Source of the DNA: Planctomycetota bacterium
Lineage (GTDB): Bacteria; Planctomycetota; Planctomycetia; Gemmatales; Gemmataceae
DNA: 64,000 bases
Reading direction: 5' to 3'
Assembly (NCBI GenBank): GCA_016191165.1
Contig: JACPPF010000023.1
Location: forward strand, 124,001 to 188,000
Shown: positions 12,904-27,200 of the stretch, one piece after another
Numbering within the stretch: position 1 is the first letter of the stretch
Layout of the letters: each line of letters starts with the position of its first letter
Translations under genes and position numbers: made by a program
The notes under the pieces: generated by a model
What the model saw: the letters and a program-made list of their open reading frames with translations, nothing else
Told to the model about the DNA's origin: nothing
Databases searched by the model: none

Positions 12904-13030
12904 TGGTTCATATTCATCGATTTTAGGGAAACAAACAATCAGCGAGCCGCCGGGCTTGTCCCGGCGGTGAACCAAACCGAATCGGGAAGCCCCGCCGGAA
13001 AAAGCCCGGCGGCTCGCTGTGACCTTCACC
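12904..13030. repeat. MITE-like 127-bp element, copy A
   Basis: A 91-base core (12940-13030) with long inverted arms (AGCGAGCCGCCGGGCTT / AAGCCCGGCGGCTCGCT) and a preceding TGGTTCA box exactly 36 bases from the core. The same layout and spacing recur at 24082-24208. Both copies lie just upstream of a minus-strand gene, in the same orientation. No coding capacity. Confidence 0.8.
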
Positions 13031-20704: not shown

Positions 20705-21106
20705 TTACGCCTGCGCCTTGATCGCGACCTGCTTCGGCTTGACGGCTTCCTGCTTCGGCAGGCGCACGGTCAGGACGCCATTCTTGTGCTCGGCCTCGAT
20801 CTTGCTTGCGTCGATGGTTTCATGCACCTGGAAGACGCGATAGAAGTCGCCGACCTCGAACTCGCCGAAGACGACGTGCCCCTTTGGCGAGCCGGGCTGC
20901 ACCTTGCCGCGCAGGATCAGTTCGCCTTTCTCATAACGCAGGTCGATGTCGCCGGCATGTACGCCGGGCATGTCCGCATAGAGCCAAAGAGCGTCCTCGG
21001 TTTCGATGATATCGACGCGAGGCGTGAAAAAGGCGCCGCTGCGGGTCTCTTCCGCACGCGCATTGGCGCCATTGGGATTGACGGTCGCGAGGGTGTTTTC
21101 AGTCAT
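20705..21106 (-). CDS. Hsp20/alpha-crystallin small heat-shock protein (second of pair)
   Basis: ATP-independent holdase of 133 residues. The alpha-crystallin domain spans about residues 28-125: TPRVDIIETEDALWLYADMP, GVHAGDIDLRYEKGELILRG, then FYRVFQVHETIDASKIEAEH and KNGVLTVRLPK. The I-x-I-type C-terminal anchor appears as VAIKAQA. The N-terminal arm is short. GGAG precedes the ATG at 21106. It is 58 bases downstream of the other Hsp20 and shares its terminator, so the two form an operon. The paralogs differ in the N-terminal arm and may assemble as hetero-oligomers, by analogy with other paired sHsps. Confidence 0.9.
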   Translation of the reverse strand: MTENTLATVNPNGANARAEETRSGAFFTPRVDIIETEDALWLYADMPGVHAGDIDLRYEKGELILRGKVQPGSPKGHVVFGEFEVGDFYRVFQVHETIDASKIEAEHKNGVLTVRLPKQEAVKPKQVAIKAQA

Positions 21107-21164
21107 GGTTTTTCTCCAGATGGAAATCGGACTTCTTTCGGGTTTCGACATTCGGATTTCGGGT

Positions 21165-21599
21165 TTAGCCCTTGATGGCGATCTTGCGCGGCTTGGCGGC
21201 CTCGTGCTTGGGCAGGCGGATCTTGAGGACGCCGTCCTCGAAACGTGCTTCGACCGCGCTGTCATCGACCGCGAAAGGCAGCGTCAACGTGCGCGTGAAC
21301 TTGCCGTACGCGCGCTCCTGGCGATGCTGGAGGCCTTTTTCGACGACCGGCGGTTTGCGTTCGCCCTTGAGAGTCAGCTGCGTGTTGCCGGTGACGTAGA
21401 TTTCCAGATCTTCCAGGGCCAGCCCCGGCAGTTCGGCTTCCAGGTGAAGGGCGTCGTCGTCTTCGCGAAGGTTGACGAGTGGAAACTCGCCGATGCCGAA
21501 GGGATGCTGCCCCCAGCGATCGAAAATGCGGTTCACCTCGTGCTGCACGTCACCGAGGGAACGCCAGACGGGGTTCGTGGACCAACGTGTGAAAAACAT
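21165..21599 (-). CDS. Hsp20/alpha-crystallin small heat-shock protein (first of pair)
   Basis: A 144-residue small heat-shock protein. The N-terminal arm MFFTRWSTNPVWRSLGDVQH is followed by the alpha-crystallin domain (FPLVNLREDDDALHLEAELP, GLALEDLEIYVTGNTQLTLK, AYGKFTRTLTLPFAVDDSAV, EDGVLKIRLPKHE). The C-terminal tail RKIAIKG has the I-x-I anchor. A strong AAGGAGGT ribosome site precedes the ATG at 21599. I looked for a CIRCE element upstream and did not see one. Confidence 0.92.
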   Translation of the reverse strand: MFFTRWSTNPVWRSLGDVQHEVNRIFDRWGQHPFGIGEFPLVNLREDDDALHLEAELPGLALEDLEIYVTGNTQLTLKGERKPPVVEKGLQHRQERAYGKFTRTLTLPFAVDDSAVEARFEDGVLKIRLPKHEAAKPRKIAIKG

Positions 21600-21877
21600 G
21601 CGAGGACCTCCTTCGAAAATGGGGGTTGAAGATCGCATCATGCGCGCACCTTCTTCGTGGCGCGAATGACTGTTTTTGGACCTTTGGCCGATTTCCTTGC
21701 GGCAGCCTGAAAATGACTGCTGCCGATTCAACTTTTCGTGCAAGCCGCGTGCCAAACGACGGGACGTGTGCCCACTCAGGGCATTGGACTTCGCAAGCGA
21801 TTGGTATTGATCAGGTTATGAAAAGCGCTCACCGACGAGCCGGGGGCGCAAAGCAGAATTCCAATGTGCGAAATGCG

Positions 21878-22813
21878 TCAAAGTGACAGCGGCGGGCTGT
21901 CATCTTCGGGAATGTCCTCGTCCCCGCGCAGGCGTTCGACGACCTCCGCGAACTCCGGCGGCGGGCGGACGATCAGGTCGTCGCCGTTCGTTTCGATCGT
22001 GAAGACATGCCAGATGCCGCCACGTACCCAGAACACCTCCGGACTTATCGGGTAGGGCATCTCCTGAAACATCTTGAACGCGATTGCGCGCAGCCAGGCC
22101 GCGGCCATCAGCGTTTGCTCGTTGATTGGCACGAACAGCAGCTGATCCCGGCCAGGCACGATCACGTAGAATCCATTCTCCTCGTGGCCCGGCATCAGCG
22201 CATCGAGGACCAGAGCCCGCGACGAATCGTACGCATCGCCAACATGCGCCTGTAGCAAGCCCGCTTCTTCATGCACCAGCTCAATACATTCAGGCGGGCT
22301 TAGCGCCTGCAAATTGGCCAGCGCTCGCTCAAACCACATGGCTCCATCCTCGCCCGACTCGGCGACCTGCTTTTCCGTCACGTACGACATGCTGTTGGGA
22401 TAGTCGACCACCAGGCTAACCCAAAGATGATCTTCGACGATCTCCCGTGACCAGACGGCAGCATCGGGATTTTCCGGCACCACCGGCACGCCAAAGCGAA
22501 CCAGCAGGCGATCCGCCACCTCGTGCAGGTCCTTTGGTTGATCAGCCGCGTCCGCGGGAACGCTGCCAAGGATGCTTTTCAATAGTCCAGGCCAACTCGC
22601 TCTCGGCTCGCGCCGCAATCGGCGATACAGGTTCTCCAGGCCGATTTCCTGTTCCAGGCCGTGCGCATCCACGCACACGACCGACGAATGCTTCCAGGCT
22701 CTGGCCTCGATTGCCAACCCCGCCAGAGCCTCACGGAGCGCAAGGAGAAACGTCCCCGGATAGCGAGGACCGGCCAAGCCTTGAGCGGGATTCGTGCGGT
22801 CAAACCGGTCCAT
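21878..22813 (-). CDS. DUF1444-like protein, unknown function
   Basis: A soluble 311-residue protein. The middle resembles DUF1444: SLVVDYPNSMSYVTEKQVAE, then ALANLQALS, and later GFYVIVPGRDQLLFVPINEQ. The family's function is unknown. The C-terminus has a short beta segment (WVRGGIWHVFTIET) and an acidic end (GDEDIPEDDSPP). The start at 22813 is the first ATG with a purine-rich site (AGGAAA). The gap of about 300 bases to pdxH holds the pdxH promoter and leader on the opposite strand. Confidence 0.6.
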   Translation of the reverse strand: MDRFDRTNPAQGLAGPRYPGTFLLALREALAGLAIEARAWKHSSVVCVDAHGLEQEIGLENLYRRLRREPRASWPGLLKSILGSVPADAADQPKDLHEVADRLLVRFGVPVVPENPDAAVWSREIVEDHLWVSLVVDYPNSMSYVTEKQVAESGEDGAMWFERALANLQALSPPECIELVHEEAGLLQAHVGDAYDSSRALVLDALMPGHEENGFYVIVPGRDQLLFVPINEQTLMAAAWLRAIAFKMFQEMPYPISPEVFWVRGGIWHVFTIETNGDDLIVRPPPEFAEVVERLRGDEDIPEDDSPPLSL

Positions 22814-22988
22814 GCGCGTTTCCTCGGCAGGCGGAGCGTCTGGGAGAAGCTTAGCCGGGGTAGGCCGAAACGGCGAAAAAAGAAATCGGCTTGTGCCAAC
22901 TTGAAGGTATCCGTTTGGTTTTGCCAATCGTTGGGACCACGGACGGGAAAACGGGGGGGAAATATTTGATATTTTTTTTACAAAACGC

Positions 22989-23016
22989 TTGCAACCCAGG
23001 TTCAAGCGTATATAGT
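22989..23016 (+). promoter_or_regulatory. Sigma-70 type promoter of pdxH
   Basis: TTGCAA (22989-22994), a 16-base spacer, TATAGT (23011-23016). The predicted start near 23023 falls exactly at the base of the downstream hairpin. Confidence 0.55.
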
Positions 23017-23021
23017 AATAT

Positions 23022-23088
23022 TGTCCCGCTGATTGATGGCTTCGGTGACTGGGCGACGCCGAGGTGATTGACAGTGGGACATTTTTTT
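23022..23088 (+). terminator. Terminator-like hairpin and T run in the pdxH leader (attenuator or small RNA)
   Basis: Arms TGTCCCGCTG (23022-23031) and CAGTGGGACA (23072-23081), one mismatch, with an inner CTTCGG/CCGAGG stem. Seven T's follow (23082-23088). It begins at the predicted transcription start and ends 31 bases before the pdxH ATG. A terminator placed between promoter and gene implies either attenuation of pdxH or a short independent RNA of about 65 bases. It is only directional to the plus strand. Confidence 0.5.
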
Positions 23089-23119
23089 GCGCTCGCATCA
23101 CAATTTAGCAAATCCTGCC

Positions 23120-23737
23120 ATGCCTTCCGATACCTTGTCGTTGCTTGAGGCGAATGCCCCGCCCAACCCGCTGGAATTGTTTGCGCAATGGTATTTGGCA
23201 GCCCAGGCCGCTCAGATTCTCGAGCCGTCAGCCATGACTCTGGCAACCGCAACTGCCGACGGACAGCCGTCCGCGCGCATGGTGTTGATGCGCGGCTTCG
23301 ACGAGCGTGGCTTCACGTTTTACACAAACTACCTGAGCCGCAAGGCCGGGGAGCTGGCGCAAAACCCACGGGTCGCCCTGGTTTTCCACTGGCCGCAGCT
23401 GGAACGGCAGGTGCGCATCGAAGGCGGAGTCGAAAAAGTGAGCGTGGCCGAGTCGGATGCCTATTTTCGCTCCCGACCGTTTGGCCACAAGCTCGGAGCG
23501 CACGCCTCGGATCAAAGCGAAGTAATCGCCAGCCGGCAGGTGCTAGAGGATCGCCTGAACGAGTTGCTGAAACGGTTCCACGAAAACGACGACGTGCCAC
23601 GCCCGGAGCACTGGGGAGGGTACCGCGTATTGCCACGCACGATCGAATTCTGGCAAGGGCAGGCCAACCGACTGCATGATCGCCTGCGCTATCAAAGAAT
23701 TGACGGCGGCTGGAAATTGGATCGGCTCGGACCATGA
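23120..23737 (+). CDS. pdxH: Pyridoxamine/pyridoxine 5'-phosphate oxidase
   Basis: FMN-dependent oxidase that makes pyridoxal 5'-phosphate from PNP or PMP; cytoplasmic homodimer. At 205 residues it is slightly short of E. coli PdxH (218), mainly at the N-terminus. Motifs: MTLATATADGQPSARMVLMR, GFTFYTNYLSRKAGEL, VALVFHWPQLERQVRIEG, YFRSRPFGHKLGAHAS, and the C-terminal signature EFWQGQANRLHDRLRY. FMN- and PLP-contacting Arg and Lys residues in these are intact. Its promoter and a terminator-like hairpin lie directly upstream. The 3' end overlaps the convergent MoaD-like gene by 46 bases. Confidence 0.95.
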   Translation: MPSDTLSLLEANAPPNPLELFAQWYLAAQAAQILEPSAMTLATATADGQPSARMVLMRGFDERGFTFYTNYLSRKAGELAQNPRVALVFHWPQLERQVRIEGGVEKVSVAESDAYFRSRPFGHKLGAHASDQSEVIASRQVLEDRLNELLKRFHENDDVPRPEHWGGYRVLPRTIEFWQGQANRLHDRLRYQRIDGGWKLDRLGP

Positions 23738-24018
23738 GCTCCTTGCGATCCGCCCGCCATAGGCGCCAGGATCGTCACCTCATCGCCGTCCGTCAGCTGA
23801 CGAGACAAGTCAGCAAGCTCTTCGCCGACGAAAAAAAGCAGCGACCTTCGCGGCTCCTCTGCGTCATCTAGCAGCATCGTTCGAAAAGTAGGATCGTGCT
23901 GATCAGCGAGCAATTTGAGGAATCCCCGCAAGCTACAGCCGACGTTGGTTTCGACCGTCTCCGAGCCACAACCGGCGGCCCGTTTGATCTGAGCCAGGTA
24001 ATGAACGGTCACGCGCAT
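23692..24018 (-). CDS. MoaD/ThiS family ubiquitin-like sulfur carrier with C-terminal extension
   Basis: A 108-residue protein with the beta-grasp fold of MoaD/ThiS: MRVTVHYLAQIKRAAGCGSE, SLRGFLKLLADQ, LLFFVGEELADLSRQLTDGD, EVTILAPMAGG. Canonical sulfur carriers end in Gly-Gly, which is thiocarboxylated. Here 16 more residues (SQGAHGPSRSNFQPPS...) follow the GG, and they are read antisense to the end of pdxH. Either processing by a protease exposes the Gly-Gly, or the protein is not a carrier. The start at 24018 matches the family N-terminus but has only a weak ribosome site. The MITE-like element lies 64 bases upstream. Confidence 0.78.
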   Translation of the reverse strand: MRVTVHYLAQIKRAAGCGSETVETNVGCSLRGFLKLLADQHDPTFRTMLLDDAEEPRRSLLFFVGEELADLSRQLTDGDEVTILAPMAGGSQGAHGPSRSNFQPPSIL

Positions 24019-24081
24019 GAAGTCTTTGTAAAGCCAATTCACACGATCGGAAGCATTTGGTGCGACGCCTATTTTTTGCCC

Positions 24082-24208
24082 TGGTTCAAATCCATTAATT
24101 CTCGGGTAATCACCAAGCAGCGAGCCGCCGGGCTTGTCCCGGCGGTTAACCAAGCCGGATCGGGCTGCACCGCCGGGACAAGCCCGGCGGCTCGCTGTGA
24201 CCTTCACC
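24082..24208. repeat. MITE-like 127-bp element, copy B
   Basis: The same architecture as copy A at 12904-13030: a TGGTTCA box, 36 bases to a 91-base core, long arms AGCGAGCCGCCGGGCTT / AAGCCCGGCGGCTCGCT, closing with TGTGACCTTCACC. It sits between the PQQ-propeller gene and the MoaD-like gene. Confidence 0.8.
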
Positions 24209-24218
24209 GGTACGAGGC

Positions 24219-27200
24219 CTATTTTTTGTTCTCCGCCACCAACTCGATGCCACAAATCACCGGCGTGAATTCGGAATTGGCGGCAATCAAACGAACTCGA
24301 AGGACATCGAGCGCGGTAACGCCCGTGAATTCCTTGACCAGCGACCGCGCCGGACCGCCGGCTTCCTTCGCGATATCGAAGTCGGTCAGCACGCGCCGGC
24401 CTTCGACCTCGACATGAAAACGGCGTTTGCCCGCGGGCATCCCGTCCGGCTCGGCGAAATACAGCTTGACGGTGTAAGCCTGCGGCCTGGTCATCTTGCC
24501 GAGGCTGATGCAGATCTCGCCCGCGCCTTTCATGCCGGAAGAAGTCACCCAGGCGTAGGCGCCGTCGATGGCGGAGGAGTGGCGGCGGAAGAAGGCGGGC
24601 TTGGCGGGGGTCGTCGTCACCTTGATGGCGGGCGAAATCCCGCCGACGCTGGGATATTCCAGCCAGAGCGTGCCATTGTCAACCTTGCGATCGCCGGCGG
24701 CGCCGAGGTTCAACCCCAGGCGCCGGATCGATCCCTTGACGTCCTTGCTGCCGAACGAAGTCCACATCTCGGCGTCGGGCATATGAATGAGGCCAATGGA
24801 CGATTGGTTTTGATAGGCGCAGGTGCAGGTGCGCGTGTATTCAGGCGCGGTCAGGACGCCGCCGGCGACGATCAGGTTGTTGGTGCAGCTGGAGCGAAAT
24901 CCGCCGAAGTTACCCGTGCCGCTGTCGTTGCACAAATCGAAATACCCCGCAGCCCCGGAGCGAAAGGTCATCAGATGTTCGGAGGCGGCCGGCGTGTTGC
25001 ACCCATAGTTGCGCGTCCATTTCCAGGGCACCGCTTCCCCGGTCAGCGGGTCCTTGCGCATCTTGAGCGCTCCGGTGAGCAGGTCGCAAGCGCCCTGGCC
25101 TTGCAGCACGGTATCGCCGTGAATCATGCCAGGCCCCGTGTAGGATTTGTTGAACCAGATCTCACCGCCATCGCGTGCCCGATAGGCGCGCATTCCCTTC
25201 GGTTCGTCAAATAGCGAATCGCGCGCAACCCGGCCGGCCTCGATCAGCACGTCATGCTTTTCCGAATAGCTCAGCCAGGTGCCAAACACATCGGCATCGG
25301 TGGTCCAAAGTTGCTTGCCGGTCTTGAGATCAAAGGCCGTCAGATGGGCAGCTGGCACTTCATCATCTTCTTTTTTCAGGCGCGCGATTTGATGCCCGGA
25401 GAGCCGATCGATGGCATAGAGTCTACCGCCCCCGACGCAGATCGCGTTGTGGCGGAAGGAATGCTTGGCCGTCGCGGTCCACAACACCTTGCCGGTGCGA
25501 CGATCCAGAACGACCAGGCGCCGACTGCCTGACATGTTGTCGCTGTTGCCCTTGAAGGCCTTGAGGAGCTTGGAGATTGCCGATTCCTTCGCGGCCTTTT
25601 TGTCGGATGTCTTGTCGTCCTTGTTTTTGTCCTTGGGATCTTCATCGTCGCCGGTAAAACCTTTCTTCAAGGCCGGCGGCGCGAATTTCGGATCGAAGAG
25701 CGGGTCGGCGCCGCCGATCAAGTAATCGCCGACCACGTTGAGATAGCCCCACGGCGTCGGCTCCTTGGTATTGGGGAGCGTGTAGAAAGCAATCTTTTTG
25801 CCCGTCTCCGGATCGAGACGAACGCACTGGCTTTGGTACGCGACGTAGATGCCTTCGGGCGTCGAGACGAAATTCGTCCCCGCGGCATTGGCGCCGGGTT
25901 GATGCGCGACGTTGTTGTAGAAGCGCCCCACCCCGGGCAGCTTTGTTTCCCAGAGGAGCCGGCCCGTGTAGATATCGATCGCGCGCATCAGATCAACGCC
26001 CTCGATAATCATCCGGCCATCGACGACCTGCGGTTGGGGGCCATGCCCGTGACGCGGCAAGATAACGTCGTGAGAAGGTCCGCCGAACCAGAGGACGCCC
26101 ATCGGCGCCTTGACGCGCACGTCGCGCGAGACGCGCGTGTTGGCGGCATCGGCGTGCTCGTGGGTCCAGTTGGCGGACCCAGGCAGCGCGCCGGTGCGAA
26201 CGAGAACCACCGATTTCTCATACTCGCCCACGCGCGCGCTGGTCAACTTGCTGTCGGCAAGGCGGGTCAACATCTTGACGGTGCGATCCGGCGCATCGAG
26301 AAAATGCGCGGACCCGCCAAAGGGGCGCAGGCTTTGATAGGCCTTGACCAGCGACTTTTCCTCCACGGCGTCCGCCTCCGGAAAGATCATCACGCTGGCA
26401 AAGTAGGGAGGAAGTTGTACTAGCTCCGCCGTGCCGGGCACGATGGCGATGCGCGGACCATAAAGACCGGTGGCGGTCCACCGACTTCGGAACGATTGCA
26501 CTTTCTTGGCGTCCGCCTCGACGACGATGACGTGCAGATCGCTCTGGCGGGCCAGGGCCTCGACGAGCTGGCCATCCCCCACGCCCCAGACGACCGCATA
26601 GCCTGCCCGTGTCTTGGCAGCCGTGAGGATATCTTCGACGCGCGATTTCACGGCCGGAGCAATTTGCGAGAACGGTATTTTGGGCAATGCGTTGACCATC
26701 GGCGTCTTGCGCTCGCCGCCGAAGCAATAGATACCGCCTTCGCGTGTCACGGCAAACAAGCGATCATCCGCGGCAATCAGGCGTGCCACCGTGCCCGGGA
26801 CATCGAGTTCGCCGGCCTGAGTGAACTGCTTCGCGCCCGCATCCCAATCAAGCATCGTGACGCGGTTGGGCGCGCCGAGGTAGAGCCGATTGCCGGCCAG
26901 CATCATCGTTTCGACGTCCACGCCCTTGGCAACCGCGAGTTCCGGCATGGTCCAGCGCGTGACTTTGGTTTTCTTGCCCTTGGCGTCCTTGGCGAAGCCT
27001 TTTTGGATCTCGGCATTTTCCAGATCGAGCGCGCGGCACGCGCCTTTGTCGCACGTGAAGACGGTATGCTCGGTCAACACGAATTGCGTGCCGATGCTGT
27101 TGAGGAATTTTTCGGCTTCCAGATCGAAGACGGCGCCGCCGTTGAAGAAGGCGGTGCCGATGGCGGCGACTTCCGAGCCGCCGCCGCGTTTGCCATTCTC

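Follow-up and report, generated by a model that had tools for sequence, protein, structure and literature searches.

The locus in front of pdxH

The sequence examined here is a window of 64,000 nucleotides (positions 124001-188000 of contig C135 of genome G000), from a bacterium presumably belonging to the family Gemmataceae, order Gemmatales. In this window pdxH, the gene for pyridoxamine 5'-phosphate oxidase, is preceded on the same strand by a putative promoter, a long hairpin and a run of T's, upstream of which lies a divergent gene. These features are given below; the copies mentioned are those of the same element found in other genomes, and R2 is one of two covariance models built on them.

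21878-22813, minus strand: divergent upstream gene, with no Pfam match
22989-22994, plus strand: putative -35 box, TTGCAA (counted from the start of the hairpin, positions -35 to -32 are most often T, T, G and C in 112 copies)
23011-23016, plus strand: putative -10 box, TATAGT (among 112 copies, the frequency of T is 0.71 at -12, that of A 0.73 at -11 and that of T 0.77 at -7)
23023-23088, plus strand: predicted small RNA, some 66 nt long, made up of a single hairpin and a U-tract (76.7 bits with R2, which matches at each of the 66 positions; no Rfam match)
23023-23032, plus strand: 5' arm of the lower stem (partner 23071-23080; two-sided changes in 10 of 10 pairs, 99 copies)
23040-23047, plus strand: 5' arm of the upper stem (partner 23057-23064; two-sided changes in 7 of 8 pairs, 99 copies)
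23048-23056, plus strand: apical loop ACTGGGCGA, whose TGGGCGA part is 23050-23056
23057-23064, plus strand: 3' arm of the upper stem (covariation; R2 match)
23071-23080, plus strand: 3' arm of the lower stem (covariation; R2 match)
23082-23088, plus strand: T-run of seven T's, the putative terminator tail (at least five T in the 11 tail bases scored, 100 of 112 copies)
23089-23092, plus strand: GCGC right after the T-run (41 of 112 copies have it shortly after the hairpin; shuffles give a mean of 12 and a maximum of 24)
23120-23737, plus strand: pdxH, the downstream neighbour (Pfam PNPOx_N and PNP_phzG_C)

The first-pass annotation of this DNA had predicted, from the arrangement TTGCAA-16-TATAGT, a transcription start at about 23023 that would coincide with the base of a hairpin followed by seven T's, 31 bases before an ATG. 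The window sequence bears this out: the hairpin (GTCCC...GGGAC) spans 23023-23080, with 23023 as its first base, and the pdxH ATG at 23120 lies 31 bases past the last T of the T-run. The fold of 23010-23120 has a free energy of -39.4 kcal/mol (z -3.5), which none of 200 shuffled sequences equalled. Taken singly, the promoter match in the window is weak evidence, as the region 21500-24500 holds one such site and shuffled sequences hold 0.6 on average. A simple terminator scan of the window did not include the hairpin at 23023 among its sites, probably because the scan takes loops of 3-8 bases and the loop here has 9. What places the unit far above chance is its recurrence across the order with compensatory changes in the stem, together with the fixed position of the promoter boxes in 112 copies.

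Two other features of the window were observed. Inverted pairs of GCCGCCGGGCTTGTCCCGGCGG are found at 12946-13013 and 24124-24191 (four matches at three or fewer mismatches, none expected); they represent a separate REP-like palindromic repeat, which also occurs elsewhere in the same genome, and a similar element is present in L153. In addition, two adjacent open reading frames at 20705-21755 on the minus strand resemble, by eye, Hsp20-type small heat-shock proteins.

Distribution and anatomy of the hairpin family

When 95 genomes of the family were searched at the DNA level, the element turned up in 39. A covariance model, R1, built on 41 copies aligned with MAFFT, then gave matches in 82 of the 95; the one in G008, a plain hairpin that lacks the loop, was removed, which leaves 81 genomes, all of them read by eye except G076 and G084. 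The second model, R2, built on 99 copies and run with looser filters, added G042, G075, G078, G079, G094 and, with a weak promoter, G032. With the matches of the two models taken together, a unit of promoter, hairpin and terminator is accepted in 87 of the 95 genomes, while no accepted copy was found in the other eight (G008, G013, G020, G047, G061, G067, G069 and G074), G074 having a single weak R2 match without a promoter that was left uncounted. In the other family of the order, four of seven genomes (G096, G099, G100 and G101) hold a copy with promoter, loop and T-rich tail; these came with R2, R1 having returned zero copies in that family.

Beyond the order, no convincing copy was found among 392 genomes of the phylum and 39 of the class. 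The phylum search, carried out with stricter filters and with 13 candidates scored per genome, matched the genome of the window and three genomes of one other family; two of these three matches are plain hairpins without the loop, and the third (G116) is likewise a match of 33 bases. Ten of the 39 class genomes belong to the same family, and the other 29 gave five weak matches (E 0.001-0.05). Among viral contigs, of which 137 of 141 stretches were scored with R2, there is one genuine copy of the small RNA element, in a contig of a viral collection (L281, 6036-6098, minus strand; IMGVR_UViG_3300049217_000176). It is flanked by a gene for an HtrA-like protease and by genes resembling those for phage portal, protease and capsid proteins; judged by eye, this contig is a prophage that lies beside a copy or carries one.

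The number of copies per genome ranges from one to about a dozen. The genome of the window has five (R2 E-values from 5.6e-17 to 2.3e-8), after which the next R1 candidates stand at E 6.5 and above, and G017 and G018 have 12 matches each, the weakest of them unread by eye. Copies inside one genome share the loop and differ in the sequence of the stem. As in multicopy small RNA families, several homologous intergenic copies are found in a single genome.

Two observations on the arrangement of copies can be added. In L095 (1506-1640) and L168 (1501-1630), two copies stand back to back, either in direct contact or with a few bases in between, and the second copy of each pair has hardly any promoter. 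A second class of stems, mostly GACCGG...CCGGTC with the same loop, is present in G012 and in genomes G015-G018 and G021 of genus g7, where it stands beside the first class in the same genomes (loci L175-L177, L179, L191, L202, L203, L208-L211, L213, L238 and L240).

The anatomy of the element was studied in 112 copies, drawn from 75 genomes and aligned solely by the first base of the hairpin; these copies are non-independent, since related genomes share orthologous ones. They exhibit a standard promoter at a fixed place, with a T also at -1 besides those at -12 and -7 and the A at -11. At least 8 of 12 promoter consensus bases are in place in 73 of the 112, against a mean of 2 and a maximum of 6 in shuffles. 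With the boxes fixed in this way, transcription should begin with the hairpin's own first base and stop in the U-tract, so that the whole RNA would be one terminator hairpin. Members of the family hence carry both a promoter and a terminator of their own.

The stem is conserved in its pairing. In the 41-copy MAFFT alignment 95.8% of the cells pair and 13 of 18 pairs show two-sided changes, a result equalled by none of 500 shuffles, and sliding the alignment cuts pairing to 34-58%. The 99 copies show changes on both sides in 17 of 18 pairs, in an alignment which, having been fitted to the model, is biased in its favour, and from which two antisense shadow matches were excluded by a tighter cut-off. 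The loop, on the other hand, is constant: TGGGCGA is found in 112 of 112 copies, a constancy that is partly by construction because the models include the loop, and the copies of the sister family keep the same loop on quite different stems. In the predicted folds, UGGGC is unpaired in 111 of the 112 copies and all seven loop bases are unpaired in 62.

The probable small RNA and its possible partners

Read as a whole, the hairpin unit is probably a stand-alone multicopy family of small RNAs. A promoter of the housekeeping type would start transcription at the G at 23023, and the RNA would fold into one long hairpin, whose base, together with the U-tract, would also terminate transcription. The transcription and the stability of this RNA are predictions from its DNA: the paired 5' end should make the molecule stable and should expose mainly the apical loop. 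Since the stems drift and still keep pairing while UGGGCGA stays, the loop is likely to be the working part of the RNA. It offers the constant, exposed stretch expected of a candidate seed, with the constancy being partly by construction, and may pair in trans with one or a few RNAs carrying UCGCCCA. To our reading, the chances that the RNA acts in trans by such pairing between loop and target are about even.

Pairing of this kind would have to proceed without Hfq, a protein that was detected in none of 31 family genomes and in 5 of 14 control genomes. In 800 kb of G017, the complement of the loop, TCGCCCA, shows no enrichment around the starts of the 552 genes called there (5 occurrences against 5.5 expected). 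Near the copies it is not enriched either: of 210 permutations of its letters, 47 occur more often. This lack of enrichment makes a global blocker of ribosome-binding sites unlikely and leaves either a small number of target RNAs or a partner that is a protein.

The second of these is a serious contender, somewhat less probable than pairing: a small RNA built in the same way, with a loop that binds a protein, either a dedicated RNA-binding protein or one for which the RNA serves as a sponge. Seven loop bases that stay constant while the stem sequences drift would fit such binding, the lack of enrichment of the loop complement at start codons and near the copies is consistent with it, and several copies per genome would suit a sponge. 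Nevertheless, the sole candidate protein searched for, Hfq, was not found in the 31 family genomes, and an exposed, invariant, G-rich loop equally resembles a pairing seed.

Neighbouring genes, probable read-through into pdxH and known systems

The gene neighbourhoods of the copies bear on whether the hairpin serves the gene behind it. They were counted for 105 copies (the 112 minus seven on short stretches) with gene calls based on codons, a rough procedure that missed pdxH behind the copy of G006 (L084). None of the 105 overlaps a called gene. The next gene lies on the same strand in 58 cases and is convergent in 31, and none was called in 16. Recurrent upstream neighbours are a metallophosphoesterase gene resembling that for UDP-diacylglucosamine diphosphatase (21) and a FabZ-like gene (10), both named by eye, and the recurrent downstream neighbours are a long gene without identity (21) and pdxH (12), while 64 neighbour proteins occur once. 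The recurrent neighbours vary by lineage and look functionally unrelated, all names except pdxH having been judged by eye.

The conservation upstream of pdxH that the first-pass annotation asked about was found in the closest relatives, the element preceding pdxH in 7 of 7 genomes of the genus of the window. In many other genera the element is on another contig or far from pdxH. Overall, it stands before pdxH on the same strand in 12 of 30 pdxH loci, which with G093 makes 13 genomes; a bare loop 7-mer 366 nt upstream of pdxH in G014 was not scored as linked, and pdxH genomes outside the locus and context sets were compared with the copies by listed places only. In the 12 genomes measured, the start codon of pdxH lies 5-51 nt behind the element match. 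A PdxH tree of 31 rows places all linked genomes, 13 in number, together on one side of a branch with support 86/71, and the linkage requires one change in 88% of the bootstrap trees, a number as low as which was reached by none of 500 shuffles. According to the tree, the arrangement would have arisen once and been kept in 13 genomes of 7 genera.

Read-through into pdxH is likely in this clade, given the 31 bases that separate terminator and start codon in the window and the scan of 21500-24500, in which no promoter-like site besides TTGCAA-16-TATAGT was found. In the window clade, where pdxH stands directly behind the terminator, the gene is probably expressed via read-through, which would tie it to the promoter of the small RNA. 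The earlier reasoning, that a terminator between promoter and pdxH would stop most transcripts, stands in part for the pdxH-linked clade, in which the gap of 5-51 nt probably makes read-through necessary.

These data can also be read as those of an attenuator or leader acting in cis, which would control read-through into the downstream gene (here pdxH), perhaps by sensing a B6 vitamer. The short distance to the pdxH start in the 12 genomes measured, the single origin and persistence of the arrangement on the tree, and the 58 same-strand next genes all favour such a role. However, the convergent next genes of 31 copies argue against a general role as a leader, the neighbours are functionally unrelated, the loop is identical whatever the neighbour, and no leader would exist ahead of the hairpin if the +1 is its first base. 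As a general explanation, control in cis is therefore improbable. Attenuation specific for pdxH was rejected as the main role, with the element before only 12 of 30 pdxH loci (plus G093) and many copies elsewhere. Even so, the 58 same-strand against 31 convergent neighbours and the pdxH arrangement across 7 genera leave room for some cis role. The first-pass annotation had proposed either attenuation, perhaps with B6 sensing, or a separate small RNA. Of these, the small RNA is well supported, on account of the conserved promoter and terminator of its own, the many copies away from pdxH and the convergent next genes; attenuation by B6 sensing is unsupported, as the same loop is found by unrelated genes, linkage to pdxH was seen in one clade only (13 of the 31 genomes of the PdxH tree) and the hairpin would have no leader before it.

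Still less probable, to the point of being very hard to sustain, is that the element is a dispersed repeat or an ordinary terminator hairpin and yields no RNA itself. In favour of this are the multiple copies in a genome, with tandem ones in L095 and L168, the T-runs of the hairpins and another palindromic repeat in the genome. Against it, the promoter boxes are fixed relative to the hairpin, copies of the same genome differ in stem sequence and covary, and a BLASTN search of the genome of the window gave no further place longer than 27 bases. The stand-alone small RNA shares with intrinsic terminators a GC-rich stem followed by a T-run, and differs from them in having a promoter of its own, a +1 predicted on the stem's first base and a constant loop.

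The family does not correspond to a known one in the collections searched. At gathering scores, Rfam 15 gave for the whole window only a tRNA elsewhere, and for 10 further loci also only a tRNA; for 22980-23120 at a lax threshold, the best match was a viral element (E 2.8, 14 bits against the 47 needed). No described small RNA family for Gemmata or Gemmataceae was found in an open-licence full-text library, and a table in one review lists 8 for the entire PVC group (PMC9029176). Likenesses of the hairpin to a K-turn, a CsrA site or a T-box, and similarity to stretches of 16S rRNA in the loop or in the bases 5' of it, had been judged by eye only and were dropped. 6S RNA, which is about 180 nt long and has a central bubble, was rejected as well, the hairpin RNA being 66 nt long with a constant end loop and no Rfam match.

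Among the systems compared, the closest in kind is FopS of Bacteroides thetaiotaomicron (PMC11697453). FopS comprises 14 paralogous small RNAs and is likewise a multicopy family with ordinary promoters, scattered genes and a common conserved stretch, for whose spread phages have been suggested as helpers. Its seed, in contrast, is in the 5' part of the RNA, and it binds RbpB (PMC11697453). The hairpin family, compared by description, belongs to another phylum, its whole RNA is predicted to be one terminator hairpin and its constant part is the loop. The LhrC family of Listeria monocytogenes is alike in having several homologous small RNA genes in one genome, and it belongs to another phylum (PMC4132741, PMC5880928). 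The Rhodopirellula-1 motif is a candidate RNA of Planctomycetes, listed without an Rfam number in a table whose description sets it apart as probably cis-regulatory and as present in Proteobacteria plus Planctomycetes (PMC2864571). No convincing copy of the hairpin family was found outside its order, though the two may still be identical.

Little is known so far about the small RNAs of planctomycetes. The RNA family described here has exact ends that can be predicted and a single constant loop; most genomes of the bacterial family carry it, with no detectable Hfq. The locus before pdxH is a clear case of a small RNA terminator placed between a promoter and a vitamin gene. It is possible, as a tentative proposal, that these hairpins constitute an order-wide system in which a regulator consisting of one terminator hairpin is encoded at up to about a dozen loci and, where Hfq is undetected, offers an identical loop of seven bases to a single conserved partner, be it an RNA or a protein dedicated to this task. 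In one clade the terminator might further have turned into a gatekeeper for pdxH, with the level of B6 salvage set by how much transcription leaks through it.
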